Assembly: GCA_963681505.1 (NCBI GenBank) | Contig: OY811976.1 | Coordinates: 6,128,003 to 6,192,002, forward strand | Length of the DNA stretch: 64,000 bases | Source of the DNA: Eunapius fragilis | Taxonomy: Eukaryota; Porifera; Demospongiae; Spongillida; Spongillidae | Direction of reading: 5' to 3' | Shown here: piece after piece, positions 5,645 to 28,930 of the stretch | Layout of the letters: every line of letters begins with the position of its first letter | How positions within the stretch are numbered: the first letter of the stretch is position 1 | Made by a program: the position numbers and the translations under genes | Notes under the pieces: generated by a model | Told to the model about the DNA's origin: nothing | What the model saw: the letters and a program-made list of their open reading frames with translations, nothing else | Databases searched by the model: none

Positions 5645-6212
5645 TTTGGCTTCTACCAAGTTAAATTTTAGCACAAGGTGGAAAATATCTCTTTCCAAGA
5701 AGCCTCATAAAATCGCTGTTCAACACAAACGTTCATGCGCAATGATCAATTTGTCGGCAGAAGTTAGGCAGCATATTTATGTTGGCAAAGTCAGAATCAA
5801 AATCAACAAGTATGACAAATAAGTAGTGACATAATTTGTCTACATATATGTACCAGTTTTGAAGTTATCTGGATGCTCCTGCTGAGAGATATTTAGGTTT
5901 TGACCACTGGGTGTAAGCCGTTTGGATTACCGTCCTATGGAGAATAAAATAGGATCTAGAATATATTCTTAATGGATATTGTGTGCTGTCACGCAATAAT
6001 TGTACCGGGCGAAAATTGTACTGGGTGCACCGGGTTGTTGTAAAACGGTTCTTAGATAATATATTACAACATGCATGCATCCTCTCGTACTTCGTACAGA
6101 CTGAATTATTTTTCTTTACATCACTATTCTGTAACCAATGACACGACCGTCCATTCATAGCTATTAATTGTTTCACTATTGATGAAACGTAATCTCAGGA
6201 CCTTGCATACAC
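5645..6212. other. Gene-free arm segment
   Basis: No convincing gene. It carries the motif CTGTCACGCAATAATTG near 5990, also seen at about 24310 (right arm) and 52434. The right arm shows the same sequence interrupted by a GGTCCG-rich element, so this is the empty-site allele of that insertion. Confidence 0.6.
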
Positions 6213-6234
6213 CTATGAAATTTCACTGTTACAT

Positions 6235-6705
6235 TCGTCTAACTGTTTCATAGTGGTTGAAAATGTATATATTTGATATATAGCCTCCTTGGAGTGCACA
6301 GAACTGCTGTTTTCAGCAGAGGAAGAATTTGTAAACTTGAGCCATTTGTTGTTCTGTCCACATTTGGTGAACACAATATTGATGTCCCCAACATATTAGT
6401 AGCTGCAAATATTTCTCAATCTGTAGCCCAGACTGACGAACTGTGCATATAGCCCAGACTGACTGACTGTGTCCAACATAGCATGACATCAATCCAGCAT
6501 TGTGTGCAATATATGTTGCTATTAGTGTTCTGAATTCAATATGATCATCTTGAGAACCAGTCACCAAAAATGCCAGTGCCTTAAAAAGAAAACAGTTGCC
6601 ATCTCCCAGAATTCTTCCAGTGACAGCAGGAAAATGATTGATGCTATAATTATAATGTTCTTGCGTGTGAATAACATAGCCGCTGACGAAACTTATCCCA
6701 AGCAA
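6235..6705 (-). pseudogene. OTU-family cysteine protease, left-arm copy (broken)
   Basis: OTU-fold deubiquitinase-like cysteine proteases use Cys, His and Asp residues. On the minus strand the nucleophile motif GDGNCFLFKALAF is seen near 6610, followed by a typical acidic and hydrophobic helix (DDHIEFRTLIATYIAHN). In other frames come the WAT-EIFAATNMLGTSI segment and, close to the end, NHYET, where the catalytic His is expected. The domain is therefore present end to end but needs frame changes, and a TGA sits where other members have Trp or another residue. The same breaks occur in the right-arm copy and in the partial copy at 9393-9740, so the gene was already dead before duplication, or it contains unrecognised introns. 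OTU domains of this kind are common in animal transposons, but the host element here is unidentified. Confidence 0.72.
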
Positions 6706-6885
6706 CTAAAACATACTTTTCTGCCAAGCGTCATGCACACACAGGCCTATATGGAATGTTATTGCTCTCATTTTCAGTGTCATCTACTAGTATGCTTCAG
6801 TGTGTTTATAAAATATCTAGACTCTTCTTTTCAATCCATAAGCATCTTGATGCTGAAGTTATCTTTCCAGGAGAAAAATTTTCTT

Positions 6886-7143
6886 TTACCAAACTGACAC
6901 CCATTTGCAGAATGCGTCCAGATGTGATGCTGATAGTAGAAAATATGTCCTTCCGAATCTTGAAAGGAGAAAAAACGGGTCACACCTGATTATGGTAAAT
7001 GAATGGTAAATGAATGCATTCACGGCCGTTTGGTAAGAGACAAAAGCTATACACACCATTTCTTTCACATCTCTAACTATTCCACTCCACATACAGCGTT
7101 CAGTGATTCTGGCGACTCCGTTGAATAGTGCCTGCTGGTTCAT
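6886..7143 (-). CDS. Short ORF shared by both arms, possible upstream exon of the OTU gene
   Basis: An open stretch of 85 codons just upstream of the OTU segment on the same strand. The first half (MNQQALFNGVARITER, then DVKEMVCIA and YQTAVNAFIYH) is kept in frame in the right-arm copy at 22326-22469, where it ends sooner. That conservation could simply reflect recent duplication of the arms. No domain is recognised. It could be an exon of the OTU gene or chance. Confidence 0.25.
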   Translation of the reverse strand: MNQQALFNGVARITERCMWSGIVRDVKEMVCIAFVSYQTAVNAFIYHSFTIIRCDPFFLLSRFGRTYFLLSASHLDAFCKWVSVW

Positions 7144-7386
7144 GTTTCTTTGTGCCCCTACATGGCCTTGCCTGATGACATGAACGTGTATGGGATGTAT
7201 AGCCCGCAGTATCGAGAATATGATTTCCTGAACTATGTAAATGCGCGCGAGTAAATGTTGTAAGGTTTGGCTTTAGTTTCACTATGCGGTACGGGATTCT
7301 TTTTTACTGGTTTGCGTTCTAGGTATCGGTTCTAGCTCAGTATAAGTCACGAGAAAAGCTCATAAGACTTCAAAAATTATTTCATC

Positions 7387-7394
7387 TGACGTCA
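7387..7394. promoter_or_regulatory. CRE-like palindrome TGACGTCA
   Basis: A perfect 8-base CREB/ATF-type site lies 41 bases before a TATA-like box and upstream of the EndoU gene. It is kept in the right arm at 22075-22082. The position suggests a core promoter, but this is inference from motif and spacing only. Confidence 0.4.
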
Positions 7395-7434
7395 TATCAC
7401 ATGCGCACATGTGCATACGATTTGCAACTGCGTG

Positions 7435-7442
7435 TATATAAA
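7435..7442 (+). promoter_or_regulatory. TATA-like box TATATAAA
   Basis: TATATAAA lies about 195 bases before the 68-codon ORF at 7634 and 450 bases before the EndoU start. Transcription would start near 7465-7470. The box is conserved in the right arm (22027-22034, minus strand). Confidence 0.45.
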
Positions 7443-7633
7443 TGGAACAGTGTATTCCTTCAAAACAACGGAGTTTAATTGGCTTGGTACACTCTGAGTT
7501 TTAATTGAACATCATTCCTGCCATATTGGGTGAGTTAGAACGCCGTGGGTTAGAATGCTGTAATCAAATGTAATCAGTGTGACTATCGTATTATGATACA
7601 GCTTATAAGCACCCCCACCTCCCGCAAATAAAA

Positions 7634-7840
7634 TTGCTTTGTTTAAACGTGCGTCACTCCGTAACCGTCGCGAGTATGTCAGGAAATAAAATGGTACGCG
7701 TCCGTGATTATGAAAAAAGATACGCGGAAACGTTCGCGGTTTCGCAGATACGGGCGTTTATCATGATGCGGGAGCTACACCGGCATCACGTGCACAGTTA
7801 CATCTACACTCCCACGCAAAGGGTTGCTCACAATGATTAA
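7634..7840 (+). CDS. Small basic protein upstream of EndoU, left copy
   Basis: 68 codons, rich in Arg and His, with no signal peptide and no recognised domain. Methionines at codons 1 and 15 (MSGNKMVRVRDYEKRY) are both possible starts. It lies between the TATA-like box and the EndoU gene on the same strand. The right-arm copy (21633-21839) is the same length with only two visible residue changes (near YIYTPT). It could be a separate small protein, a first exon, or an upstream ORF of the EndoU transcript. Confidence 0.4.
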   Translation: MLCLNVRHSVTVASMSGNKMVRVRDYEKRYAETFAVSQIRAFIMMRELHRHHVHSYIYTPTQRVAHND

Positions 7841-7887
7841 ACTTAAAACCATGCACTTTAAATTCGATTCATGCATGAATTAACTGC

Positions 7888-8664
7888 ATGGCAACTGTTT
7901 ATCAACAGTATCCAGCTAGGATGCTGTATAGCGAAAGAGTCGTACGAGTATGTGTTATTGCAATTGCCGTCTTCGTGGGCGTCTCCACCACAGCATTGCA
8001 TCACCCCAACTTTGGTAATACTGTAAGTCATGAGGAGTATAATAGCATATATAATAGTTACACTTGGTTGAACTGAGTGCGTGTAACATTGTATTCCTTA
8101 TGACAACAGCTGTCAGCTATGGCATTGGTCAATCCGGCAAATTTTCAGTGCGACAAATGGAGTCCCGTTGACGCGGATCCGAAAATAAGCAACACCAATC
8201 CTCAAGTTGCATTGACCCATATTTTCTGTGGACAAATAAAGGCTAACGGCGATGCAGAAGGACTTCACTACCTCCCGTCTGCCTCTTCTAAATACGGCCG
8301 TGTTGAGGAACCTATCACGCTAACAAACGCACTGCCTTGCTACAAGAAAGAGGCGGTTTACAATGCTAAATCATCACAATGGATATACAGGGTCTTGTCA
8401 AGCGGTTCGAAAGGGTTTTGCTTCTTTCCGAGAGCTTGGTCGGTTGTAGATACAGTCAACAACTTAATAGCCACACACCGACGATGTAACCCTAACCAAA
8501 ACGTTGGTACGCTATGTGCTCGTCGTCCATACGGACCTGGCTTCGATATCATCATCTTCCTAGGAAACCTATCCACAGGCCAACGAGGAATTGTATCTGC
8601 ATTCGCAACTCCAGAAAATGCTTATAATCAAGGCTGCACTGTATGCCAGCCTCCTGCAGGTTAA
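7888..8664 (+). CDS. Secreted bacterial-type EndoU nuclease-like protein, left copy (two exons)
   Basis: Exon 1 is 7888-8022, then a GT-AG intron of 87 bases (8023-8109, donor GTAAGT), then exon 2 at 8110-8664; the junction is phase 0. The N-terminus has a hydrophobic stretch (VCVIAIAVFVGV) followed by small residues, read as a signal peptide; starts at 7888 or 7921 both precede it. The mature part resembles the bacterial EndoU domain (Pfam EndoU_bacteria): THIFCGQIKANG with the first His, GLHYLPS with the second, then FCFFPRAWS and the closing strand RGIVSAFATP. In bacteria this fold is an RNase, often the toxic tip of secreted polymorphic toxins; in an animal a secreted digestive, defence or venom-like role is possible, but catalysis is unproven. 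Several cysteines fit an extracellular protein. Sequence is intact. Likely ancient lateral acquisition from bacteria (inference). Confidence 0.75.
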
Positions 8665-9392
8665 GTAACGTGACTGTAATGTTACAAGCCACAAGCCTGC
8701 ACTATACATATACATACGCCTTTTGCTCTCATAGTGCAGTTGTACGAATGCCATTACATTACTTGCACTGATTTCATTGAGCATGTTGAGCAATGGCGTA
8801 ACATCACGTCACGTTCCATATTTACGCACATATAAAACTACCGACGTGTCATATATGATAATTATCGCATGCAACTATGAAATAGTAAACTAAATCAACT
8901 CAACAGTTTTACAGCCGGATAAATATAAGATTAAATGCCATGGTCGAAATTTATTTAGGAACCTTTTCTTGGTAATGTGCGATTTTCAATGACGTACATG
9001 TGAGCACCTAAAGAGGAAAAACAAATGCTTTAATACATGACCACAGTGAGAAATATACAATGTTGAGATGAATGATTTTGTTATCAGATAACACGTACCA
9101 CACGCTGCAAGCACACCCACATGCGTGCACAGACTATGCTTCTATAATGACTGCCAATCATCCATTGATAGTCAACTTAGCCCTGCTGCTACATCAGTGA
9201 TGACCGATCACGTCTCACCCATAGCAAAAACAGCTCTTCATGATCACACATTACGAAAACAAACCCTGTTCATTGAGGTTAGGGCGCAAGGATTCAAAGT
9301 TTAGTGTTCTTTGCTGCAACTCATTATACACAGACGGTAGTTTATGTAAAGTACTCACCTATTTATCATTCCAGAAATTATTGTTAAAGATG
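8665..9392. other. Conserved arm segment without a gene
   Basis: Shared with 20105-20819 of the right arm. Contains AT-rich 3' flanking sequence of the EndoU gene. I see no convincing ORF or RNA gene. The arms stop matching at 9392/20105. Confidence 0.6.
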
Positions 9393-10100: not shown

Positions 10101-10108
10101 GTGACACC

Positions 10109-10656
10109 TGCTGTTTTCGATGCGGAGAGGAGGGACATATCAAACGATTCTGTCCTTTAAACTTCAACGGGCCTGCTGGAGCGGTGAACGGCAACAGACT
10201 AGGAGCCCGTTGAACGTTCGCCAAAATCTGGATCCATTGCATTTTGGATGCAACATTTCTAACGTCACTTCGTTGCTTTGCATAGACGGGAATGTGGGGA
10301 AAAGGCCAGTGAACATGCTTTTAGATTCAGGAGCAGCGGTTTCCGTAGTTCGAAATAGCGTTTTGGATGATATAAGTAGAAATCTGGTAATGGCCACATC
10401 AAGAACAGCTATAGGTGCCAATGGGCTGCCTCTGAGTGTGATGGGGCAAGTGGACCTTGACGTTTGTCTTGGTAGCTTTCGAACAGTTCATACTTTCATT
10501 GTCGTAAGGGATTTAACCTTTTAATGCATACTGGGAGCTGATTTTTTGAAGATTAACAAGGCTGTGATGGACTTCAGGAATAACATGCTTCACCTAGGGG
10601 ACAGCGCAGTCAAGATTCCTAGTAACAACAACTCGATCCGCATCGGTTTCGAGTGA
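10109..10656 (+). pseudogene. Ty3/gypsy zinc knuckle and protease (broken)
   Basis: A CCHC knuckle, CFRCGEEGHIKRFC, is encoded at about 10112-10156 in one frame. The protease follows in another frame, with the active-site motif MLLDSGAAVS at about 10315 and the flap-like region IGANGLPLSVMGQV. The C-terminal LGAD motif of retropepsins lies just after an in-frame TAA at 10522. No capsid region is visible upstream; the minisatellite sits where it should be. The frame change between knuckle and protease may be a natural gag-pol frameshift, but the TAA is a true break. Confidence 0.85.
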
Positions 10657-10701
10657 AGCACACAGCATCTCCGTACATGCGGTTGAAGACATGGAGATCT
10701 T

Positions 10702-12400
10702 GTGATTCAGCTGAGCGGTTCACTGAAGGATATTGATAGAGCCTGCTGCAGTTTTGCCGAAGCATATCTTTGTGTTGCTCGTTCACTGGGCCGCGTATCG
10801 TCGGAGGGATCAATCTTGGTTCAAATGATGAATGTGAGTCCTACAGCAGTGAAAGTGTACAAAGGTATTCAACTGGGTCAGTTCGTACCACAGAGAAACC
10901 TCTTTCTGATGGAAAGCAATATAGCAGGAGTCAGTTCAAGCAATCACAGAGAGTCTAATAGATTCAACTTGGACTCAGCAGAAATCACAGATTCAGAGAA
11001 ACATGAGCTGAGGAGTCTCTTGAGGAAGTTCGCTAATCTTTTTGTTTCAGAAAATGGAGCATTGGGGAGGACGAAAGTGGTCAAGCACAACATCAATACC
11101 TCTGGACATCCTATCAGGCAGCCCATGCGTCGCCAGCCCGAGAGCTTAAAGGGTGACATGAATGAGGAAGTGAAGATAATGTTGTCTAAAGGAGTGATTC
11201 GACCAAGCAGTAGTCCATGGTCATCTCCTGTGGTAATGGTGAGAAAGAAAATGGATCATGGCGTTTCTGCATTGATTATCGGTAGCTAAATGCTGTGACA
11301 CACCAGGATGCATATCCACTTCCAAGAATTGATGCTACTTTGGAATCTCTGGCAGGATCTACATTGTTTACTACGTTGGACTTAGCCTCTGGATATTGGC
11401 AGGTGGAGATAGAAGAAGATAACAAAGAGAAGACTGCTTTCTCCAATAAGAAGGAGCATTTCGAATTCAATGTGATGCCATTTGGACTCACAAATGGTCC
11501 TGCCACTTTTCAACGGCTCATGGAGTGCATTCTTGCAGGACTTACTGGAGAACAGTGTTTGATTTACATTGATGATATCATAGTTTTCAGTGCCTCATTT
11601 CCTGAACACCTAGAACGGCTAACTAATGTTTTCATCAAGCTGGAAGATGCTGGACTGAAGCTGAAAACTGAGAAGTGTTACTTTGCTCAGAAGGCTGTCA
11701 AGTACCTGGGACATGTAGTGTCAGCTGAAGGTATCTGTCCAGATGCAGCCAAAACTGAGGTAGTCGTCAGCTATCCAGTCCCAACAAGTGCTAAGGAAGT
11801 GAAACAGTTCATGGGCCTCTGCAATTATTACAGAAGATTTGTGAAAGACTATTCAAAGATTGCAGCCCCCTTGTTTAAACTTTTGAGCAAAGAAAACGCT
11901 AAGTTTTTCTTATGGAATTCAGGAAGTCAGGATACTTTTGAGGAGTTGAAGTCAAGATTAGTCTCGCCACCCATTTTGGCATATCCTGATTTTAAGCAAC
12001 CATTCATACTCCATACGAATGCATCTGATGCTGCAATCGGGGCTGTTCTTAGCCAGGTTCAAGAGGGTACAGAATGTGTTATTGCGTATTGGAGCCAGAA
12101 GTTACAGAAGGCAGAGAGAAATTACTCCACTACAGAGAGAGAGAGGCATTGGCTGTGGTTGCTTCGTTGAAGGAATTTTATCCTTATGTGTATGGCTTTT
12201 CACGCAAGTTGATCACAGATCATAATCCTCTAACAAGCCTCAAAGGGATTAAAGATGTTGGAGGACGCCTGACAAGGTGGCTGCTTTTCCTTCAGATCAA
12301 CCTAGACTTCCAGTACAAGCCAGGAAGGTTACATACAATTGCTGACACCTTGTCTCGGATTCCATCAAGGGATGACACAGTGGCTGCCATTGAAGAGCTC
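10702..12400 (+). pseudogene. Ty3/gypsy reverse transcriptase and RNase H (broken)
   Basis: Reverse transcriptase copies the element RNA. Motifs in order: GVIRPSSSPWSSPVVMV near 11195, DLASGYWQVE, PFGLTNGPATFQRLM, and the catalytic box YIDDIIVF near 11565. FMGLCNYYRRFVKDY and the RNase H start HTNASDAAIGAVLSQ follow. In the RNase H motif the expected first catalytic Asp (TDAS) is Asn. Breaks: a frameshift and a TAG near 11250-11285, and a second frameshift in a GA run at about 12140, after which the connection segment continues (LITDHNPL, FQYKPG, ADTLSRIP). The element cannot make this enzyme as it stands. Confidence 0.93.
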
Positions 12401-12512
12401 ATCTCAGAGGATACACTTCATGCATTTCTGAAGGCACAAGAAGAAGACCCTGCATTGGGTAAAGTGATTGAAGCCTTGAAAAATGGGACTGCTTTTCCGT
12501 CTATAGTATACA

Positions 12513-13640
12513 GTGCCAGGGTTGAAAAAGACATTTCTTCAAGATGGGCTACTTTGCCGCAAGTTTAGGGCGTCATGTTCAGAATCAGTGCGTACCCAGC
12601 TGGTGGTTCCTAAAGGTCATGTGAAGATCATTTTGGAGAAATTGCATAATGAGAGGTCATTTGGGTGTTCAGAGGACAAAGAAAGTAAAGGAGCACTTCT
12701 ATTGGCCTGGATATGTTATGGGCATTCAGAGTTGGGTTCAAGAATATCAACAATGTCAAAAGCGTAATCCACCTCAACCTCATCCTCTGGCACCTCTTGG
12801 ATCAATCAAGTGTACTTATCCATTTGATGTGATAAGTTGGGACATAATGGGGCCTCTTCCTCTGTCCACTAAAGGGAATAAGTACATTTTAGTTATTACT
12901 GATTTGTTCAGTAAATGGGTTGAAGCTTTTCCCTTGGCAGTGACTGATTCAGAGACTCTGGCATCTGTACTGATGGATGAAGTTGTGTGCAGGAATGGTG
13001 TGCCTCGTTCACTGCACAGTGATCAAGGTGAACTTGAACAGCTAGGTAATATTTGCTCTGTGCAAACGGTTAGGAATCAATAAGACGAGAACCACAGCAT
13101 ACCATCCTCAAGGAAATGGACAGGTAGAACGCTTCAACAGGACCTTGGAAGCCATTTTGTCCAAAGTGGTAGCGGAAAACCAAAGGGATTGGGATTGTCA
13201 CACCCCAAAGGTACTGTTTGCATATAGGACGGCTTTTCATGAGTCTAGGGGTCATTCACCATTTCGAGTTAACTTTGGACGCTCTCCACTTCTACCGATT
13301 GACATTGCCGTCGGTCAATTGAATGTTCAGGAATAGGTAGAGGGCGAAGAGCCGACGGTACCTCAGTTTGTAGAGACATTGAACAAATCTCTCCGCAAAA
13401 TCTTTAGTGATGTGAAGGAACAACTTGCTTCAGCTCATGATCGAAGTAAGAAACAGTATGACAAGGGTGTAAGTGGAGAGAAGTTCACAGTAGGCGATCA
13501 GGTGTGGCTGTTTGTACCTGCAGTACTAGTAAAACAGGGAAGGACCAAAAACTGCCTTTTCTTGGGCGGGGACCTTATACTGTGATTGACCGTATAAATG
13601 GTGCATTAAATTACCGCATCTCATCGTAATAGATTGAAAA
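12513..13640 (+). pseudogene. Ty3/gypsy integrase (broken)
   Basis: The zinc domain reads HLGVQRTKKVKEHFYWPG with QQCQKR, but the first Cys of the CxxC pair is Tyr. The catalytic core has WDIMGPLP, DLFSKWVEAFPL and HSDQG for the two Asp residues. After a short deletion and frame change, the Glu motif AYHPQGNGQVERFN appears near 13100. Then come FAYRTAFHESRGHSPF and a C-terminal GDQVWLF tail. Stops occur at about 13080, 13334 and 13583. Same strand and continuous with the reverse transcriptase. Confidence 0.9.
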
Positions 13641-14963: not shown

Positions 14964-15720
14964 AATCCTAAAGTGTCTTATTATGTAAGGCTACATAACA
15001 TGACTAATGCTAACTGCCGCGCCGCGAGAGAGGGCTCATTATTTCGAACCTGTCCAACCGGTTTTGGCCAACCATATTATTGTCTGTTGCTTTCGTGCCA
15101 TCGTGTGCAATTGTATTTGGTGCCATATTGTACGCTGTTCATGCCACTGGTTGACAACTCGCCGGCAGAGCGACACGTGACGTCCTCACGCTTGGGATTT
15201 AATAGTATCTATAGAACATGATCGTATCGTAAGATGCTCTTGGCGCAATTTTATCATTTTATTGCCGAGCTGTTATTAGTTGTGCATGCCACGGTTGTAT
15301 GCGGCTGGAAACTAGGTCTATAATTAGATCATTTACGGTATTAACACATCATTCTTACAAAAGATGCCTCATTATAGACATCCCATGTTGATAAAGTGAC
15401 CATGACTCAGCAGAAAGAGCAAATCAAAAAATTACAACGAGCCCAAACACTGCACTCCCTTTCCTGGCATGTCCGATAGATGCGCACAATTCACATCCCA
15501 CATAGATAGCATGCGCACACCGTTTCATAAGGCCACGCGGCACGTAATTAGAAGGGGGCGTTACTAAATTAGACAACGTGGCCTTCGGTGACCGAGCTGG
15601 AAGGTAAGCATACTGCAGCGATGATCAGGAGGCATGTGGCTATAAGTATTGGCAAACCTGATGTGGCGACACGTTTTCTATCACCACAAACAAGCTGAGC
15701 GAATTGCATGAATAATCGAC

Positions 15721-18700
15721 ATGTGTTGTGGTTTGTCCCTACATGTATACATGATTATAGGTATGGATTACCACAACCAACAAGTTCCCATACATTGTAG
15801 AGTTTGTGGGCAGAGGCTAACGAAGTACAGGGCAAAGAAGGGTATTAGCTATGAGTGCAAAGTATTCTTAGCTGAGCTGAAAATTGCTTTTGACATCGAC
15901 ACATCTGGGGATGATGTCAACATTCACCCAGAGATGTTTTGCAAGCAATGTCAGCTCTCAATGCAGAGAACCATCAGTGCCATTGAAAAGGGAGTCCATT
16001 ACAAATGTGCAGCGATCGTATGAAATTGGCTAAAACATACAGACGAAGAATGCAAGGTAACCAGTACACATATGGTTTAAGTAAACAAACATATGACATC
16101 ATGGTGTTTAATTATGTGAGCACTTCCATGCATGCTGAAGTGGATACAAGAGGAGGTCAACAGTTCGTAGAGGTCGTCAGGCAGGCTTCACACCTAATTT
16201 ACTAATAGCTCATCTTGAGAAGATTGCCCCTCCTCCAGTTCTCTTACATGCGCCTAGTCCACCTTTGGCAAGCATGAACAACCAGTTGATGTAACAGGAG
16301 CTGAAGTGTGCATTGTGCTCCAACATCCTCTCACAGCTACTGGAACTGCAGTGTGGTGCACTGGTATGTGTCAAGTGCCTCCAGGAGTGGATAGCAGCAA
16401 CAGGTGCTGTGAACTGTCCCTGCTGCTCAGAGGATGGTCCCTTGGTTCCCTCCCATGTCAGACAACACCAGGTGTGATACTCCTGCTATCGGATGTTCTG
16501 GTAAATTGTACAGACTGCAGCAGGGATATAAAGGCTGGTGAATATGAAGGGCATGACTGTGGACCATCACTTACACCTGAGGACGAGAAGCAAGCAGCGG
16601 GATTGCTGAAGAGGGCCATCTCTACCAGTCCTGACAAAGGTATCATACAACTTCCTACAGGAGGAACAGTTAAGTGAATGTCATTGACTTGTACTGAGGT
16701 TACACAATATCTACACACACTTTAGCCAATGACATTCATGCATGTTACCAGAGCTCACCAAGAAACCACAGCTGCCTGTTCGTGGACTGTAAAGTTGCGA
16801 TGTTCTCAAATACAGAAAATCCGAGGCATTGTCAGTGGTGGTGAAGCATCTGCGCTTATCCAAAAAGAGGTCCTCATCCTTAGCAAGGAAGAGAGGCGAT
16901 CTTTGTTGGGTAAGGCAGGAATCTCATCATCGATTGAGCTTGGGGCAGCTCAGGTGTTGGCGATTAAGGCAGGACTTGCCATACCTTGGAATAAACTGCA
17001 GCTTCTGGGACGGTATGTCACATCATACACCAAAGGTACCAATTCTAGCTCACTGCTATTTCAGGTGGCTCAAATCGTCAGGCATCTGTCTGGCTGGTGA
17101 GGAAAGGATGCACCACATTTCCAACCAAATTGTTGGTGATAACCTCAAGGGAGAGATAGCCCCGTTTTCATTTCCAATTCCATCTGGTGGAGAAGAAATC
17201 AAAGGAGCTCCTTTGGTATACATTCCACAGTTGGTGGATAAAGTTTTGCAGCTCTTGGAAGGGAATGAAAGGAAATGGTAAGACAGTGAGATACAATGGT
17301 TGTTAAAACATGGTTGCAAAACTGACAGGCTTACCTGGCATGAAGGGTTTATACCAGCCAATCAGATCTGGTTGAAGATTGGAGAAGACAAGGGGGGTGG
17401 AACATTCAAGATGACCTTTCAGATTGTAAATGTTGCCACACCCAATTCAGTCCATAACTGTGTATTCAGCTGTTTTGCGGCTGGTGACAGCGTCACCAAT
17501 CTCCATGTGGCACTTGATCACTTTAAAGATCAAGTAGAACATCTACATGGAATGAAGTGGAGGTAAGAGCGCTATACCTAAATCATGTTAAATATACAAG
17601 TGCTACAAATTACAGGCAATACACAGTGAAGGTGTTTATATGTGGTGACTATGAATTCCTGTCAAAGATATATGGCTTGTCAGGAGCTAGTGGTATGCAG
17701 TAGTATAGAAAATGCAAGCATGATGTGAAATGATGACCATGCAATAGGATGCTACCCTTGCTTATACTGCAAAATTCACAGTGACCAGATGGCTGCACCT
17801 CTAATCGTTCGAGGGCATGCCAAAGGAAGGTCACTAGAGGATATGTGTGCTGACCACCAGTGCTATGTATCATCAGGGAGTGTTAGCAAGGATGCACAGA
17901 TGTTCTTTAACTGCATCTCAGAACCTATTTTTGACATCCCTGATTCACAGGTAAATGAATCCAACATTACAATTATTCGAATTACACCATACAGGTCTGT
18001 CCACCTGGTCTCCACATTATGTTGGGGATCTTCACGAAGATGTTCCATCTGCTGGAAGCTCTATGCTGTCAACTGGACTTAGAACTAACATCTCAAACAA
18101 CTGATTTCGACTCCTCCAGTATTTCCAAGTACAGCCAGGTGCTGCAAAGGCTTCAATTGCTCCAAGCAGACCTTGAAACTGTCCAGCATGCACATGAAGT
18201 GTTGCAGCAGGTGGCAACATATGTGGCCTTAGTCCATGGAAAGAAAAACCCTCTTTCTGTGGATCCTTTGAAGCAATCTGCTGCAAAAAAGAGATCAGTG
18301 AAGGCACTTGTAAGTCATTATCCAACATGCACAATTGTATTCAAGTTAGTTATAATAGGAAGCAGAAGTGGCCAAATGCACAGCAAATGTGAAAAAAGGG
18401 TACTCTGAAATAGAAGGGCCCTTTGTCAAGACACTTGACAGTGCACTACAATCATTTGGAGTTCAACGACAGCAGTATTTTGGGGGGGGGGGGGGGGGGG
18501 GGGGGGCATTTATTGGCAACCATGTGTACACAAGGCATTGAAGGTAATGTGCTATACATGGGGATATGAATAATTCATACCGCTTAAATAATTATTAGGT
18601 ACCAAACATCCAGACTCTATGCACATCTACATCTCAGTTGGCACAAGAGAAACTGCCCCACCGATCTGGAGAGGTAGCTGATCAAGTGACTAAGTTCATC

Positions 18701-19161
18701 ACCGCATTCTCTTTGTATGGAAAATGTCACAATAAATGTGATCAGAACTTCATTCATGCGACACAAGCACATGCACTAGACCTGGTAAGTTAACAATGTT
18801 CAGTGTACATGTAGGGTTCACTTTATGCTCCATTCTAACTAACTAGGCTATTCAAGAGTTCATGGCCTTTTTCCGAGACACATATCCAGAGGCAACAGTC
18901 CCAATTAAAATGCATCTATTAGAGGATCACACTTCGCAGTGGGCAAATAGTAATCACGTTGGCTTTGGCCTCCTGGGTGAACAAGGAGCCGAGTCAATCC
19001 ATGCCAAGTTTAATCAACTTGGCTTGGTATTTGCTCCCATTAAAGAACGGGTGCAGAACCTGAAGTGCATAATGAAAGAACACTCACTAAGTATTGATCC
19101 ACAATTGGTAGCTGCCATCCCTCCTCCGGCTAAGAGAGTAAAGAATACTATAGCTATGTAA
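15721..19161 (+). CDS. RAG1-like RING/DDE recombinase gene, about 12 exons
   Basis: Exons read as 15721-16056, about 16150-16668, 16726-17012, 17065-17277, 17329-17562, 17616-17692, 17748-17950, 17995-18309, 18359-18543, 18599-18784 and 18847-19161; most introns are 44-62 bases with GT-AG ends and matching phases. Order of domains: N-terminal CxxC zinc motif, a basic RGRQAGFTPNLL segment, RING finger, PWNKL region, then an RNase H-like core. RAG1/Transib family proteins cut DNA at terminal signal sequences. Likeness to RAG1: LKIGEDKGGG for the first Asp, FICGDYEFLSKIYGL then ASG and CLYC for the second Asp and zinc pair, and HLLEDH then GEQGAESIHAKFN for the HxxxxH pair and Glu. Exons 16726-18309 and 18599-19161 are clean. 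Breaks: TGA at 16021, TAA at 16292, a GT duplication near 16470, and a G run plus GT duplication at 18482-18535. It may be a decaying transposase or a host gene with assembly errors. Confidence 0.82.
16307..16426 (+). other. RING finger of the RAG1-like protein
   Basis: Cys pairs CALC at the start and CPCC at the end enclose CGALVCVKCLQEW. Spacing fits a RING-type zinc finger, which in RAG1 is an E3 ubiquitin ligase preceding the core. The frame is offset from the following exon part by a GT duplication near 16470. Confidence 0.75.
17387..17389 (+). other. Predicted first catalytic Asp codon
   Basis: GAC in the motif GEDKGGG, aligned by context (LK-x-x-x-D, then FKMTFQIVN) with vertebrate RAG1 D600. 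Confidence 0.6.
17647..17649 (+). other. Predicted second catalytic Asp codon
   Basis: GAC in ICGDYEFL, aligned with RAG1 D708. The next exon supplies CYPCLYC, matching the CxxC zinc pair that follows D708 in RAG1 after an E-x-SG-S linker. Confidence 0.65.
18482..18506 (+). repeat. G homopolymer inside a RAG1-like exon
   Basis: About 25 G residues replace what should be a short Gly codon run between QRQQYF and AFIGNH. It makes the reading frame uncertain. It may be true expansion or a sequencing/assembly fault. Confidence 0.9.
18991..18993 (+). other. Predicted catalytic Glu codon
   Basis: GAG in GEQGAES, 21 residues after the second His of HLLEDH; in RAG1 the Glu (E962) is 20 residues after the second His of its H-x4-H pair. 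Confidence 0.65.
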
Positions 19162-20104
19162 TTCAGTCTATATACATATCAACATGAAGTCAAATCAAAC
19201 CTCATTGCGCAAATATTCTCCACCCCTAAAATGACACAAAAAATGGTGGATTTTCAAAGGCTTGAAAACTATTTAACAAAAGATGTCGCCATTAACGTGT
19301 ACCAGAAAACGATAGTACATTCAACGAACTTTACCGTGATAGTTTTGGCATGTTCATGTCAGTCACCAAGGGTCGTTATCCTTTTTTGAACACGCGTGGT
19401 CGGTGTTCACCGTGCGTAAGTCAATAGCTTTCGAAGATCCAGAGCCAACAGTTCGCAACGCCAGGGCACGTGATTTATGCCTGCAATAAAGGTCAGAGGT
19501 GTTTGTCACTGGTAGTGTGGCTTTTAGGTGTTGATTACGTTTCATGTACCTCGTGCACAGCTTGTTCTAAAGGACATCAGTTGCTAGGTTCGTTGCTATG
19601 GGGCTACGTAGCCACTTCAATATTTTGGGGCTTAGGGCCTAGTTTCCACGCGTTCAATGAGAGCAGACCGCCGTGATACAGGCCATATCACGTTCGCAAG
19701 ATGCGCTGCATGCGTCACAAGAATGTCATGTATGTATCCACTCCTCATGCATGCTTAATATGTAGATGGCTTACATGTATGGGATGTTGCAGCACATTTA
19801 TGCCACAAGCTGCCTTATGCATGCAGCCAATCATCATGGACATATAGAAAATACCACTGATGCCTATATGATTCCAAAGCAAATGAATCAGGCCGTTTTC
19901 TGTTGTCTTTTATGGCCAATTTGGAAAGCGGTACCTCAACGTTTGCCATAATAGCACTGTATGTACATAAACCGTACATTTGATTTACTGACCGTTTTCG
20001 GCAGTATACAATCTTGCATATTTCATGCAATTAGAAACAGTCCAAAAAATCTCGGATTTCTAGTGGAATTTTTTCGACAGCCTTATAATTCTAAGGCACT
20101 GTTT
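19162..20104. other. Spacer segment downstream of the RAG1-like gene
   Basis: No convincing gene. I looked here and at 14600-15720 for terminal inverted repeats, target duplications or CACAGTG-type signal heptamers flanking the RAG1-like gene and found none by eye. Confidence 0.5.
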
Positions 20105-20819
20105 TTAACAATAACTTCTGGAATGATAAATAGGTGAGTACTTTACATAAACTACCGTCTGTGTATAATGAGTTGCAGCAAAGAACACTAAACTTTGAAT
20201 CCTTGCGCCCTAACCTCAATGAACAGGGTTTGTTTCCGTAATGTGTGATCATGAAGAGCTGTTTTTGCTATGGGTGAGACGTGATCGGTCATCACTGATG
20301 CAGCAGCAGGGCTAAGTTGACTATCAGTGGATGATTGGCAGTCATTATAGAAGCATAGTCTGTGCACGCATGTGGGTGTGCTTGCAGCGTGTGGTACGTG
20401 TTATCTGATAACAAAATCATTCATCTCAACATTGTATATATCTCATTGTATTAAAGCATTTTTTTTTCCTCTTTAGGTGCTCACATGCACGTCATTGAAA
20501 ATCGCACATTACCAAGAAAAGGTTCCTAAATAAATCTCTACCATGGCATTTAATCTTATATTTATCCAGCAGTAAAACTGTTGAGTTGATTTAGTTTACT
20601 ATTTCATAGTTGCATGCGATAATTATCATATATGACACGTCGGTAGTATTATATGTGCGTAAATATGGAACGTGACGTGATGTTACGCCATTGCTCAACA
20701 TGCTCAATGAAATCAGTGCAAGTAATGTAATGGCATTCGTACAACTGCACTATGAGAGCAAAAGGCGTATGTATATGTATAGTGCAGGCTTGCGGCTTGT
20801 AACATTACAGTCACGTTAC

Positions 20820-21596
20820 TTAACCTGCAGGAGGCTGGCATACAGTGCAGCCTTGATTATAAGCATTTTCTGGAGTTGCGAATGCAGATACAATTCCTCG
20901 TTGGCCTGTGGATAGGTTTCCTAGGAAGATGATGATATCGAAGCCGGCTCCGTATGGACGACGAGCACATAGCGTACCAACGTTTTGGTTAGGGTTACAT
21001 CGTCGGTGTGTGGCTATTAAGTTGTTGACTGTATCTACAACCGACCAATCTTTCGGAAAGAAGCAGAACCCTTTCGAACCGCTTGACAAGACCCTGTATA
21101 TCCATTGTGATGATTTAGCATTGTAAACCGCCTCTTTCTTGTAGCAAGGCAGTGCGTTTGTTAGCGTGATAGGTTCCTCAACACGGCCGTATTTAGAAGA
21201 GGCAGACGGGAGGTAGTGAAGGCCTTCTGCCTCGCCGTTAGCCTTTATTTGTCCACAGAAAATATGGGTCAATGCAACCTGAGGATTGGTGTTGCTTATT
21301 TTCGGATCCGCGTCAACGGGACTCCATTTGTCGCACTGAAAATTTGCCGGATTGACCAATGCCATAGCTGACAGCTGTTGTCATAAGGAATACAATGTTA
21401 CACGCACTCAGTTCAACCAAGTGTAACTATTATATATGCTATTATACTCCTCATGACTTACAGTATTACCAAAGTTGGGGTGATGCAATGCTGTGGTGGA
21501 GACGCCCACGAAGACGGCAATTGCAAGAACAAATACTCGTACGACTCTTTCGCTATACAGCATCCTAGCTGGATACTGTTGATAAACAGTTGCCAT
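20820..21596 (-). CDS. Secreted bacterial-type EndoU nuclease-like protein, right copy
   Basis: Mirror copy of the gene at 7888-8664. Exon 1 is 21596-21462, the intron 21461-21375 (87 bases) and exon 2 21374-20820. Only a few residues differ in exon 2 (GDAEG becomes GEAEG, PRAWS becomes PKDWS, YGPG becomes YGAG) and a few in the signal peptide. Both putative catalytic His motifs, the splice sites and the upstream CRE and TATA-like boxes are kept. Two intact copies despite heavy decay around them argue that the gene is either useful or very recently duplicated. Confidence 0.75.
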
Positions 21597-21632
21597 GCAG
21601 TTAATTCATACATGAATCGATTTTAAAGTGCA

Positions 21633-21839
21633 TTAATCATTGTGAGCAACCCTTTGCGTGGTAGCGTAGATGTTACTGTGCACGTGATGCCGGTGTAGCT
21701 CCCGCATCATGATAAATGCCCGTATCTGCGAAACCGCGAACGTTTCCGCGTATCTTTTTTCATAATCACGGACGCGTACCATTTTATTTCCTGACATACT
21801 CGCGACGGTTACGGAGTGACGCACGTTTAAACAAAGCAA
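21633..21839 (-). CDS. Small basic protein upstream of EndoU, right copy
   Basis: Same length as the left copy at 7634-7840 with changes only near NIYATT. No recognised domain. Lies between the promoter-like motifs and the EndoU gene. Confidence 0.4.
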   Translation of the reverse strand: MLCLNVRHSVTVASMSGNKMVRVRDYEKRYAETFAVSQIRAFIMMRELHRHHVHSNIYATTQRVAHND

Positions 21840-22026
21840 TTTTATTTGCGGGAGGTGGGGGTGCTTATAAGCTGTAACATAATACGATAGCTACACTGAT
21901 TACATTTGATTACAGCATTCTAACCCACGGCATTCTAACTCACCCAATATGGCAGGAATGATGTTCAAAACTCAGAGTGTATCAAGCCAATTAAACTCCG
22001 TTGTTTTGAAGGAATACACGGTTCCA

Positions 22027-22034
22027 TTTATATA
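22027..22034 (-). promoter_or_regulatory. TATA-like box, right copy
   Basis: Reverse complement of the left-arm TATATAAA; same distance to the EndoU gene. Confidence 0.45.
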
Positions 22035-22074
22035 CACGCAGTTGCAAATCGTATGCACATGTGCGCATGTGATA

Positions 22075-22082
22075 TGACGTCA
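22075..22082. promoter_or_regulatory. CRE-like palindrome, right copy
   Basis: TGACGTCA, 41 bases upstream of the TATA-like box as in the left arm. Confidence 0.4.
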
Positions 22083-22325
22083 GATGAAATAATTTTTGAA
22101 GTCTTATGAGCTTTTCTCGTGACTTATACTGAGCTAGAACCGATACCTAGAACGCAAACCAGTAAAAAAGAATCCCGTACCGCATAGTGAAACTAAAACC
22201 AAACCTTACAACATTTACTCGCGCGCATTTACATAGTGGAGGAAATCATATTCTCGATACTGCGGGCTATACATCCCATACACGTTCATGTCATCAGGCA
22301 AGGCCATGTAGGGGCACAAAGAAAC

Positions 22326-22469
22326 ATGAACCAGCAGGCACTATTCAACGGAGTCGCCAGAATCACTGAACGCTATATGTGGAGTAGAGATGTGAAAGAA
22401 ATGGTGTGTATAGCTTTGGTCTCTTACCAAACGGCCGTGAATGCATTCATTTACCATAATCAGGTGTGA
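22326..22469 (+). CDS. Short ORF, right-arm equivalent of 6886-7143
   Basis: Keeps MNQQALFNGVARITER and YQTAVNAFIYH in frame but loses a few codons in the middle (MWSRDVKE) and ends earlier. Possible upstream exon of the OTU gene; function unknown. Confidence 0.22.
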   Translation: MNQQALFNGVARITERYMWSRDVKEMVCIALVSYQTAVNAFIYHNQV

Positions 22470-22740
22470 CCCGTTTTTTTCTCTATTCAAGATTCGGAAG
22501 GACATATTTTCTACTATCAGCATCACATCTGGATGCATTCTGCAAATGGGTGTCAGTTTGGTAAAAGAAAACTTTTCTCCTGGAAAGATAACGTCAGCAT
22601 CAAGATGCTAGTGGATTGAAAAGAAGAGTCTAGATATTTTATAAACACACTGAAGAATACTAGTAGATGACACTGATAATGAGAGCAATAACATTCCATA
22701 CTGGCCTGTGTGTGCATGACCAATGGCAGAAAAGTATGTT

Positions 22741-23240
22741 TCATTTGCTTGGGATAAGTTTCGTCAGCGGCTATGTTATTCACACGCAAGAACATTATAA
22801 TTATAGCATCAATCATTTTCCTGCTGTCACTGGAAGAATTCTGGGAGATGGCAACTGTTTTTTATTAGGGCACTGGCATTTTTGGTGACTGGTTCTCAAG
22901 ATGATCATATTGAATTCAGAACACTAATAGCAACGTATATTGCACACAATGCTGGATTGATGTCATGCTATGTTGGACACAGTCAGTCAGTGAATTATTA
23001 TGTACAGCAGACAAATATGCAAAGTTCGTCAGTCTGGGCTACAGATTGAGAAATATTTGCAGCTACTAATATGTTGGGGACATCAATATTGTGTTCACCA
23101 AAATGTGGACAGAACAACAAATGGCTCAAGTTTATACAAATTTTTCCTCTGCTGAAAACAGCAGTTCTATGCACTCCAAGGAGGCTAAATATCAAATATA
23201 TACATTGTCAACCACTATGAAACAGTTAGACGAATGTAAC
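22741..23240 (+). pseudogene. OTU-family cysteine protease, right-arm copy (broken)
   Basis: GDGNCFLL marks the nucleophile near 22848, but a base loss just after it shifts the frame. The rest of the domain follows in other frames (WATD, a TGA, then EIFAATNMLGTSI, and NHYETV near the end). Shares the TGA with both left-side copies. Confidence 0.72.
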
Positions 23241-23443
23241 AGTGAAATTTCATAGGTGTATGCAAGGTCCTGAGATTACGTTTCATCAATAGTGAAACAA
23301 TTAAAAGCTAAGAATGGACGGTCGTGTCATTGGTTACAGTATAGTGATATAAAGAAAAATAATTCGGTCTGTACGAAGTACGAGAGGATGCATGCATGTT
23401 GTAATATATTATCTAAGAACCGTTTTATAACAACCCGGTGCAC

Positions 23444-24286
23444 TGTCACTGGAAAATTGGTCCGCGGTAATTTTGGTCCGGGACCAAAATTATCGCTGAA
23501 AATTTTGGTCCGCCCGGACCAAACTTACCAGAAATTATGGTCCGGGCTGAAAATTTTGGTCCGGATGTTGGAAGTAGCCCTACAGCCGGTTTATAGAGGC
23601 TTCACGTAGCCAAACACAGTAGTTTGATATCGTAGTGTATGCTAGCTGTATGCACGAGGGCATGATGGCCGGGCGAAGCGCCAAACGGATAAACCAGTTT
23701 GTACATATACTCCGGCTCTAGCTGTGTTATCGAGTTGTTGCGGGTGATCGATTCATAGATATTTGTAACGAGGTTTCCGGCCCGTTTGCCTTGCCTATAG
23801 TTTCCCCCTGTGACGAAGCAGAGTTCTGAACAAAATGTCAGCTGAGGAATTCATTATTTTTTGAAATCCATCAGGAATTAGGTCCGGTCTGACAAACTGC
23901 GCAGCTGGGATCCGGCCAGGCAGGTCTGCAGCCGTGAATATCACTGTTTATGACGTGTACATGAATTGTAAAAAACTAGTGGGAACTGGTCCGATCGCGA
24001 CCGGAAGGCTAATACACTAACCTGGGGCGCGCAGAACCCGGCCTACTATTCCATAGCCTTCGTAGCTTAGAAAAGCAGCTACCCTACTGTTCACCCACTA
24101 GCTGAGTTCAGGGTTTAGAGTTGTGTTTGAGATGATTCGTCTGTTTTACATGTAAATGGAGGGCCCGGACCAATTTTTACTTACCCGGACCAAAATTTCC
24201 TGATAATATTGGTCCGCCCGGACCAATTTTTTCCAAAAATTTTGGTCCGAGACCATAATTTTCGGCGGACCAAAATTTTCGTGACA
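23444..24286. mobile_element. GGTCCG-rich TIR element with GCAC target duplication
   Basis: Terminal inverted repeats begin TGTCAC and contain AAAATTTTGGTCCGC. The 4 bases GCAC occur once at the empty site in the left arm (about 6030) and on both sides here (23440-23443, 24287-24290). Many GGTCCG/CGGACC blocks lie at both ends; the middle has no ORF. Non-autonomous; superfamily not assigned. Related blocks lie at about 58140-58300 and 60245-60375. Confidence 0.8.
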
Positions 24287-24399
24287 GCACCCAGTACAAT
24301 TTTCGCCCGGTACAATTATTGCGTGACAGCACACAATATCCATTAAGAATATATTTTAGATCCTTATTTATTCTCCATAGGACGGTAATCCAAACGGCC

Positions 24400-25468
24400 T
24401 AAAACCTTCAGATTTTCTATAATACTAGTACTACCATCGGCCATCATCTAAATGCAAGCAAAAGTAGCTTGAATGCTGAGTTTTGACCATCAATCCATCC
24501 AATAGCTTATGCACCAAGCAAAGCAAACATGGGCCTAGTGGATCCTCTGTTTTACTTCTTCAGTAGGATTACATGACTGATGGAGGGAAAGAGATGAATG
24601 GCACCACTGAACCCAACTATAAATGCCTGGAAAAATATGGAGGCATTGATTTATAATAAACAAATTTGAAAGCTAGATGAATTCTTTTTTTTAAGCTTTA
24701 TCTATTTTGGTCTCCATAATTTTCCCATAGCCCATGAAAAATTTTCATGCCGGCTTCTTTGTGATGCAATAGTAACCTGGTTATGCATGAGATGTATAGT
24801 CTTCACCCAATAGCTTTACGGCAACTCGGATTTCCTTCATATGTGAGTACTCACAGGCAATTATGAGTACATGTGGTGATTTCCTGCTTTCTTTTGTTTC
24901 ACAATGCGGTAAGCATTTACTATTAACCATGCGCCGCAAATTAAAATCTAGCTGGCTATACTACACATTGTTACAAATAGTACAAGCTAAACAAAATAGT
25001 ATCTTTTGACCTGCAATTTTGGTTGGTGATTTGAAAATAATAAGTTTGCATTGTCCCAGTCCACAAAGAAATAATGTGTAAAACTGTGCATGCACTAACA
25101 TTAAGTAATACATACATGATTGATACAATGTAAACTAAAACAGATAATAAACAGTTCAAGGGGAACGGCAATTCCTGCAGCTGTCTCGACAGGCTCTGCT
25201 GGCATTACATCATTACTGTCAAAAGGTGCTTGGGTTCATCCCATAATGATTTGAAAGAGGGTTAACGTTTTTCTGTGCACACCACTACCAACCAATGACT
25301 GGCTGTCCTTCAATGCATGTATCACATGGATACATGTTCAATGCACTCAACTATTAATTAATGGCTCACAAAACTACCGTACAGCTGCTCGTGTCAAATG
25401 AACCAAAAACGGACTCTCTAGCTTCAGAATAGCTTAATAATCTAGCTACGACACGAGAGTTATAATTA
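24400..25468 (-). repeat. Right-arm tandem unit A (truncated)
   Basis: Reverse complement of the 1.26-kb unit, missing its last part. The deletion joins it directly to sequence equal to about 5912 of the left arm. Confidence 0.85.
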
Positions 25469-27318
25469 CAGAAATGTACACCCAGGTAAGTTACTATGAA
25501 AGTTTTAGTATAATATATGACACTGTATATACTGCCGCTCCTTTATCGGAAGTCTCGCTAGAGACTTCCATATAGGTTTTGACCCCGACTATGAATTTAA
25601 TTAAAATCCCGCGACCCTACCGTAGCTTCGCTCCCGACGATCGGATCGTGTAAATTTATGCGGCAATCGATCTAGAAGTCAAAACTGAGTAGTTTCGTTT
25701 TTGTTTCACGTCGTCGAACAGCGTGGTTGTCGAGAACAAAAAATACTACTGTCCTCGTTCCCCTTCCAAAAATCATGGGCGGGTCGTCGTCTTCTTCTTG
25801 AGAACTCATAACTCGGGACAGGAACACTTTAAAGCAATGAAAATTGCACCAATAGCTTTAGAATTTGCTGGAGGACTCGCCTTAGTCGATGTTAGGCTTT
25901 GATACACAAAAGCCTAAAAGCCTATATACGGTCTCATCAATTCTAATTAAGCAAAAGTACCTAAAAATTTTTCACAATACGTCTGGATTGAATTAAATGA
26001 AAGGGGGAAACCTGCGATGCAACAGTGATTTGGTTGTTAAAAAAATTAAGGAAACAAGTAAATAAAAACATTCTCTCGAGAAAGTTGGTGGGATATAGGT
26101 TTAGCAGGCAAATAGTATACTGGTGTAAAAAGCAAGGAAACAAGTTTTATCAGAAGGGAAAATGTAATAGTCCTATATTTAGCACAGAAACAGCATATGC
26201 CTTAGTCGAAGTGTGCTAAATATAGGACTATTACATTTTCCCTTCTGATAAAACCTGTTTCCTTGCTTTTTACACCAGTATACTATTTGCCTGCAAAACC
26301 TATATCCCACCAACTTTCTCGAGAGAATGTTTTTATTTACTTGTTACCATTGCAAGAGCCTGTAGAAGGATTACAAGTAGGGTTTAAGGGATGAACATCA
26401 TTGGAAAGCTTTCTCAGACTTTTCTAGGATACACATACCAATTGCAGATCAATTCTGGCTGGATCAACTGAATCATAGATATATTAGCTAAAATCTTCAG
26501 ATTTTCTATAATACTAGTACTACCATTGGCCATCATCCAAATGCAAGCAAAAGTAGCTTGAATGCTGAGTTTTGACCGTCAATCCATCCAACAGCTTATG
26601 CACCAAGCAAAGCAAACATGGGCCAAATGGATCCTCTGTTTTACTCCTTCAGTAGGATTATATGACTGATGGAGGGAAAGAGATGAATGGCACCACTGAA
26701 CACAACTATAAATGCCTGGAAAAATATGGAGGCATTGATTTATAATAAACAAATTTGAAAGCTAGATGAATTCTTTTTTTTTTAAAGCTTTATCTATTTT
26801 GGTCTCCATAATTTTCCCAAATCCCATGAAAAATATTCATGCCGGCTTCTTTGTGATGCAATAGTAACCTGGTCATGCATGAGATGTATAGTCTTCACCC
26901 AATAGCTTTACGGAAACTTGGATTTCCTTCATATGTGAGTACTCACAGACAATTATGAGTACATGTGGTGATTCCCTGCTTACTTTTGTTTCACAATGTG
27001 GTAAGCATTTACTATTAACCATGCACCGCAAATAAAATCTAGCTGGCTTTTTACAAATAGTACAAGCTAAACAAAATAGTATCTTTTGACCTGCAATTTT
27101 GGTTGGTGATTTGACAATATTAAGTTTGCACACCACTACCAACCAATGACTGGCTGTCCTTCAATGCATGTATCACATGGAAGCATGTTCAATGGACACA
27201 ACTATTAATTAATGGCACACAAAATTACCGTACAGCTGCTCGTGTCAAATGAACCAAAAACGGACTCTCTAGCTTCAGAATAGCTTAATAATCTAGCTAC
27301 GACATGAGAGTTATTATT
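25469..27318 (-). repeat. Right-arm tandem unit B, split by a fold-back element
   Basis: Second unit in the right arm. It is interrupted by the insertion at 25549-26345 and lacks about 0.3 kb near 27130, so GTTTGCA joins CACCACTACC directly. Confidence 0.85.
25549..26345. mobile_element. Fold-back element copy 1
   Basis: Absent at the same place in the left arm, so it inserted after the palindrome formed or was lost on the left. It has a body of about 480 bases and a near-perfect hairpin (about 26053-26345, arms near 140 bases, loop with TTAGTCGAAG). The outer end carries GGAAGTCTCGCTAGAGACTTCC-like palindromic sequence. A second full copy lies inverted at 43566-44371. Confidence 0.85.
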
Positions 27319-27909
27319 GGAAGAGCACACTTCAGCCCATAACTTTGTTGAGAACCTAGGAATAAGAGGACAACTTCAAATGGCCACATGCATGCAATTA
27401 ACCCCATCAATCCAAAACACTGAACCCGGTTTCATTTTTACATACCCATTGACAATGTGCTGACACCAGTTTGGATTCAAATAGTACTTCAGCATCAACA
27501 TAAAGTCCACATTTATTCGTACACTGCATGGCCTTACTGCTGGCTTTTTCAGAGTTTGTTCATTTTTCCCCTCTTGGTGCCCTCAAAGTCAACTGAAGGT
27601 ACTTGATCTTCAGATACTCACACACCCTTACATCCCTTCTACAGATATGCATGTAACTACAGCACAATACCCATCAACAGTGCATGTATTATAGGTGTTT
27701 CTGGCTTAAGCCAGAGGACTGACCATGATGTTAGCATGGACACTTCATTCCGCTGCAGACACTTTTGTACCAGGACACCATACCAGACAGATGACTGACA
27801 ATGCAGCATAGGGGCTAGTGAAATATGGACAAGCATAGGGACATGCCAACAAGTTGGCCCCACCAGAATAGAAAGAGTATTAGAACTGGCTTATTCAGTG
27901 AGCACCCTG

Positions 27910-28920
27910 GAGGCGGGAGATTTTATTTTTTTCTCAAGCTCTCCTTGCCTCTTGGGAGATGAGTTGTAAAATATTGAGATTTCTTGGAGTGTTCCATGCA
28001 TATTTCTGATTGACTGAACACTGCAAGCTGCAACAACACAGATATTTAAAGCATGATCTGCACAATGAAAATATGAGCCATTGAGTATACTTGCTGGATG
28101 ATAGCAGCTGCATCTTGATACCTACCAGCCATTCCCTGCACTGTCATAACCCTGTCCACAAAGATATCTTAGGTCCAGCCCATATTTTCTCACAGCATTT
28201 GTAATTGGATTCGATACTGCCTCCCCGGTGGTACCATATTCACACAATAAGAACGATAAGAATTCTTCTCTGACCATCCCAGCTTGATCAACAAATCTGA
28301 GAATGAGTGACAGTTGCTCTTTATTTGCCACACCTGAAGCTTCATCAGCACACACAGAAAAATATATAGCTGCTCTTACTTCATGTAGAATCTTTTTCTT
28401 GTATCCATTCACCTGCAGTAATAATTGGGTAATTTGAAATGTAGGTGACTGATATTTAGCATTATTTGGTGCAGACGAAAGGTGCTCCTTCAGAACCATA
28501 TCTCCTAACTCGACTAATAGCCTCAATAAATTGCCAGGATTACCTTCAGAAGTAAAGCGGATTTGCATGCTTTCATCATTCTTGAATGACATGATCTCAT
28601 GATAGCTTCTCAGTGCCATAATTTGCCTACCACAACATTTTAGAAACTCACGATTTTTTTCTAAACTCAGCAGTCGCTTGATGTTCAAGTTTGTTTTGTA
28701 CCAACAACTGACCTGTCTGTAACACTGACAAGTGTCACTCATAGAGGTGTTATGTGACAGCTGCAAACCATGTTCTGTTAGTGTCTGTTTGGCATGTGTA
28801 TAATTGGTCATTGGAGTTGTACAAAGCTGACCAGTAATAAACTTCATTTTACCAAATATGTCACAATTGATAAAAAATCCACTCTCACAAGATATCAAGT
28901 AGGAAAGCCAGGGAAACGTT
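27910..28920 (-). pseudogene. hAT-like transposase (TTF/DUF4371 type), C-terminally cut
   Basis: hAT transposases of the TTF-type zinc finger class move DNA transposons by cut and paste. On the minus strand FPWLSYLISCESG opens the zinc finger region near 28910, followed by a long clean stretch (28122-28898) with YFSVCADEASGVANKEQLS (first catalytic Asp region), REEFLSFLLCEYGTTGEA and CGQGYDSAGN. After a frameshift the typical FHCADHALNICVVAACSVQ follows, ending near 27915 just outside the palindrome arm. The C-terminal dimerisation domain is missing. A stop sits just upstream of FPWLSY. Confidence 0.8.
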
Positions 28921-28930
28921 CCAATCTAAC

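Follow-up and report, generated by a model that had tools for sequence, protein, structure and literature searches.

The transposon, its copies and its gene

The 64,000-bp stretch of the genome of the freshwater sponge Eunapius fragilis that was analysed here (the window, in whose coordinates all positions are given) carries on its plus strand a split gene (15763–19161) that lies inside a multicopy transposon of 4,386 bp (15290–19675, plus strand). This element very probably belongs to the Chapaev group of cut-and-paste DNA transposons, and the copy in the window is decayed. The original prediction of a RAG1-like recombinase gene was right about the exon-like blocks, the RING finger and the order of the motifs, all of which are present in the sequence; it missed both the transposon around the gene and the damage that the window copy has suffered.

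The sequence around the gene gave, on its own, no clear terminal repeats, and the ends were settled by comparing copies. The genome searched (218.9 Mb in 24 contigs) contains at least 77 matches to window positions 15200–19900 (40 of 488 candidates scored) and at least 131 matches to DUF1280 (150 of 168 candidates scored), the Pfam family of the core. Thirty loci were fetched from the former matches and examined for ends, and in 12 of them both ends lie at the same bases, reading CACGG...CCGTG in 11 of the 12. An exact 4-bp target-site duplication (TSD) flanks nine of these two-ended copies (GAAT, AGGC, TAAC, CACT, CTAC, AGGT, TCCA, GGCC and AGCT), and an exact 3-bp or 5-bp repeat flanks none of the 12. 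Three of the four bases agree in locus L031 and in the window copy, which has ATGC on the left (15286–15289) and ATAC on the right (19676–19679). The terminal inverted repeats (TIRs) of the window copy, at 15290–15316 (plus strand, starting with CACGG) and 19638–19675 (minus strand), have TGGAAACTAGG in common. The element holds a single gene between noncoding ends of 473 and 514 bp, too little space for a RAG2-like gene; none was found in it, the two minus-strand open reading frames (ORFs) of at least 100 aa being antisense to exons, although no kelch profile was run.

The final gene model has 11 exons separated by introns of 44–94 nt, so that the split structure with GT–AG junctions first described stands, with 11 exons in place of twelve. 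Over 10 introns in 11 aligned genomic copies, GT was found at 108 of 110 donors and AG at 108 of 110 acceptors, which is above chance, and the four misses are confined to copies L028, L030 and L031. Nine of the 10 exon junctions are bridged by continuous relatives (eight aligned, from sources including Ephydatia, Patiria, Lytechinus and Sycon, and themselves predicted proteins); the junction of exons 1 and 2, where relatives carry extra residues, is uncertain. An earlier start of exon 3 at 16752, with a frameshift there, was rejected and replaced by the acceptor at 16726; the Pfam queries and those of the first search for relatives predate this change and are missing the initial residues of exon 3. 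The end of exon 4 in the model is the donor present in the open copies, and with the 11-exon model three of the 11 copies (L022, L023 and L024) give an open reading of 935 aa.

The window copy itself is broken. Four defects are private to it among the 11 aligned copies: stop codons at 16021 (TGA) and 16292 (TAA), the loss of 1 nt at 16465 and the insertion of 2 nt at 18523. In L027 and L029 the stretch with the TGA is itself deleted. The window copy has also lost, through a 10-nt deletion at 17270, the exon 4 donor that the 10 other copies use. A run of 25 G (18482–18506), 18 of them extra, lies inside its exon 9; since expanded runs are also found in two of the 10 other copies (L026 and L030), the family seems prone to mutation at this site. 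One internal stop interrupts L025, and the remaining seven copies, the window copy included, are more broken. The 11 near-full copies are 96.1–99.7% alike, which is read as a sign of recent spread.

The encoded protein and its relatives

Exon 1 (15763–16056) encodes an N-terminal zinc region that matches the Pfam family RAG1_imp_bd (PF12560, 1.6e-07), and the N-terminus is therefore not unusual, as the original prediction had it, but corresponds to a region of RAG1 that is called "Chapa" in Chapaev. Exon 2 (16151–16668) follows with the RING finger (16307–16426 from first to last Cys), a second zinc finger (16507–16560) placed by profile alignment as in the RAG1 dimerisation domain, and a TGG(x)P motif. 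RING models match this N-terminal half below the Pfam cut-off (best zf-C3HC4, 8e-04). When a profile of 15 relatives was compared with the PDB, the top match was RAG1 (1rmd, 7.4e-13), followed by 12 more RAG1 sequences, and among the best 60 of 205 matches the RAG1 chains rank above TRAF6 (2.8e-11) and other RING proteins; the matched stretch in the RAG1 chains is the RING part, not the core. The protein thus carries, by the PF12560 and 1rmd matches, the RAG1-type N-terminal zinc region together with the RING/zinc dimerisation domain.

The core begins in exon 3 (16726–17012) and continues through exon 4 (17065–17277, where the window copy, its usual donor deleted, uses the next GT). Exon 5 (17329–17562) holds the first putative catalytic Asp (17387–17389), in a motif that reads GEDKGG in the window copy and GGDKGG in the open copy L023, and exon 6 (17616–17692) the second (17647–17649, CGDYEF). 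The CxxC pair (17759–17770) lies in exon 7 (17748–17950), a helical insertion region in exon 8 (17995–18309), and exons 9 (18359–18543) and 10 (18599–18784) lead to exon 11 (18847–19161), which contains H-x4-H (18913–18930), the two Glu of GEQGAES (18979–18981 and 18991–18993) and the stop. Alignment A1 shows no variation in either Asp, in either Cys or in the EQ of GEQ, and hardly any in the two His and the second Glu; in a low-scoring profile alignment this second Glu falls on the GNES of RAG1. The sole Pfam match of the core at E<=1 is DUF1280 (1.8e-09, 38 bits against a cut-off of 25). Pfam and the family profile against the PDB thereby bear out a RAG1-like layout, with a RAG1_imp_bd region, a RING and a D-D-CxxC-HxxxxH-E core.

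A structure prediction, one of the checks first proposed, points the same way: among the best 50 Foldseek matches listed, the predicted core fold is closest to RAG1, far above the P element, and BbRAGL does not appear among them. Identity between the core and vertebrate RAG1 in these structural matches is 10–15%, and the distance from the second Asp to the last Glu is 353 residues in the open copy compared with 254 in shark RAG1 (P0177). A global superposition is compatible with a convergence of the three acidic residues on a single active site. A profile-against-profile comparison with 15 vertebrate RAG1 proteins succeeded over the full length (98.3%, E 1.6e-14, colinear across 696 columns), and it is probably the part before the core that carries this match; with the core only it gave no significant match, as described below.

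In a protein search that scored 7,999 candidates, 87 relatives were found, 79 of them with Ephydatia muelleri identifiers (EMCRGX names, or Em...a EukProt identifiers read as E. muelleri) and the other eight from Patiria, Lytechinus, Halichondria and five ENA proteins. Among the 25 of 73 Pfam families listed for 41 relatives, DUF1280 is matched by 35 and RAG1_imp_bd by 13 at E<=1. A second search with eight relatives as queries returned 14 proteins, including P0093 of Sycon ciliatum; P0092, with an scpid identifier, was also read as Sycon. Two E. muelleri proteins belong to the same family, EMCRGX_G032597 (P0002; 83% identity over 61% of the core query) and EMCRGX_G021706 (P0003; 62% over 98%). 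In a tree of 25 rows the former is the nearest: it pairs with the open copy L023 at about 0.1 changes per column and a support of 100/100. One branch of this tree separates the ENA, JGI and Sycon rows from all others. The relatives and the tree make a freshwater sponge near Ephydatia the probable host, and the sponge source suggested by the original prediction is borne out. The E. muelleri relatives are annotated as hypothetical proteins only, and in several of the gene models the N-terminus is incomplete.

Taken together with what has been described for RAG1, these features suggest how an intact copy may work. The spliced transposase, with its Chapa zinc domain, RING and second zinc finger, and RAG1-fold DDE core with CxxC and HxxxxH pairs, would dimerise through the RING region and bind the CAC...GTG ends; the D-D-E site (Asp 457, Asp 527 and Glu 880 of the open copy) would then cut the ends at CAC, and the cut ends would be joined to staggered positions, 4 bp apart, in the target DNA. 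Catalysis and current activity of the element are presumed, and a hairpin step and a ubiquitin-ligase role of the RING may be supposed by analogy with RAG1.

Group assignment and the origin of the RAG1 N-terminus

The name Chapaev rests on Pfam, the TSD and the ends. In the literature, DUF1280 is given as the family of Chapaev transposases, in the same clade as RAG1 (PMC3985635, 2014), and the hallmarks of Chapaev are TSDs of 3–4 bp and CAC/GTG termini (PMC4079192, 2014), both of which most of the two-ended copies display. The Chapaev elements described with Chapa followed by RING (PMC4411706) have the same domain order of Chapa, RING and DDE core, and by the description of Chapaev the DUF1280 core, the termini and the 4-bp TSD are likewise shared; the sponge host and the 11 exons set the present element apart from them, and that paper makes no mention of sponges (0 occurrences).

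Several observations weigh against this assignment or against the likeness to RAG1. L022, with both ends, shows no TSD, L040 ends in CCATG, and the TIRs are short and imperfect, their score being matched by 4 of 1000 shuffled pairs. The group assignment draws on Pfam, TSD, ends and literature rather than on a phylogeny that includes named members of Chapaev and Transib. The core-only profiles gave 0.1–27.7% against vertebrate RAG1 in local and global runs, the best local core match of profile A3, one of the two profiles, lies out of the expected register, and pieces of the core reach 0.1–7.4% against the RAG1 profile. At these probabilities the DDBD, RNase H and C-terminal pieces lie, in position only, at about the places expected from RAG1; the pieces of the nonamer-binding domain (NBD) do not, and a counterpart of this domain sought in the GGRP region was dropped, the profiles giving it no support.

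It is improbable that the element is a RAG1-like transposon of the ProtoRAG type (RAGL), or a remnant of one, as originally proposed. The predicted fold, the RAG1_imp_bd and RAG1-type RING regions and the full-length profile match would all suit such an origin, but the core profile is DUF1280, and PF12940 (the RAG1 core) is not matched by the window core at E<=1, nor is it among the 25 of 73 families listed for the 41 relatives. Moreover, the TSD has 4 bp and not 5, and the element has one gene only, unlike vertebrate RAG1 with its RAG2 and unlike ProtoRAG (BbRAGL) with its RAG2L partner (PMC7204232). A RAG1-like lineage in the RAGL or Transib sense is hence not upheld; Transib (HzTransib) lacks a RAG1-like N-terminal region and has a TSD of 5 bp (PMC8355894).

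The CxxC and HxxxxH pairs, part of the layout that the original prediction linked to RAG1 and Transib, are shared more widely across the CMC/Transib assemblage, and EnSpm/CACTA, Mirage, Chapaev, Transib and RAG1 all have them (PMC12730594, 2025). This, and the weak core-only comparison, could be explained by a transposon of the CMC group (CACTA/Mirage side) that resembles RAG1 in these motifs only, yet such an origin is most unlikely given that RAG1_imp_bd and RING are features of RAG1 and Chapaev (PMC4411706), that DUF1280, the family of Chapaev, shares a clade with RAG1 (PMC3985635), and that the fold matches RAG1 so much better than the P element. Equally hard to credit is a domesticated host recombinase gene, for which the long multi-exon structure and conserved splice sites could speak, in view of the many places at which copies with TIRs and TSDs lie and the broken state of the window copy.

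The Chapa domain was presented in a 2015 paper that is reportedly by Kapitonov and Koonin. There, RING comes next to Chapa in two Chapaev subgroups, as in RAG1, and Chapa, RING and core are inferred to have been joined already in a common ancestor (PMC4411706). A RING with a RAG1-related core outside vertebrates has thus been in print since 2015, and the question of how far back this combination goes, raised by the original prediction, had already been asked from Chapaev elements (PMC4411706). The present analysis adds a sponge family together with its ends, and a comparison of the folds. No report of a sponge Chapaev or RAG1L element was found among the titles and abstract openings listed for RAG1 with sponge, Porifera or sponge genera and for Chapaev with sponge, two of these lists covering 20 of 146 and 20 of 265 entries; one candidate, PMC4298943, was discarded, as it matched solely through a transposon named Spongebob.

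The origin of the RING and zinc N-terminus of RAG1 is still debated. In one view, a Transib fused with an N-RAG-TP element and so gained it (PMC8355894); in the other, it is an old inheritance common to Chapaev (PMC4411706). It can tentatively be suggested, as a possibility that we do not favour strongly, that sponge Chapaev elements keep the whole RAG1 architecture (Chapa, RING dimerisation domain and RAG1-fold core) in a single gene without RAG2, and that the N-terminal half of RAG1 goes back to a transposase older than the bilaterians and was not gained by a later Transib fusion. If so, RAG1, ProtoRAG and Transib would have an extant outgroup in these elements. With its open copies, clean ends and predicted RAG1 fold, the sponge family offers a concrete RAG2-less outgroup in which transposition could be assayed directly.

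Surroundings of the element

The transposon is flanked by a long inverted duplication (1–9388 and 20104–27879, the left arm truncated by the window start), whose aligned pieces are mostly 92–98% identical. These giant repeats were rejected as the element's own ends since a search of the genome (2 of 2 candidates scored) found a 1,187-bp segment of them in the two arms and nowhere else. Both arms contain a near-identical ORF (8104–8664 and 20820–21380), the left one matching EndoU (PF14436, 1.1e-06), and self-BLAST shows a tandem array (564–5645), its unit about 1.27 kb long, pieces of which recur inverted at 24399–27879. The spacer between the arms also holds retroelement pieces (10105–13083; RVT_1, RNase H and integrase core) read as Gypsy type. 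Further along the window lie a minus-strand ORF with DUF4371 (28122–28925, 1.6e-16), a family linked to hAT transposons (PMC3985635), and an RVT_2 reverse transcriptase ORF (52811–53866, 8.1e-70) read as Copia type.
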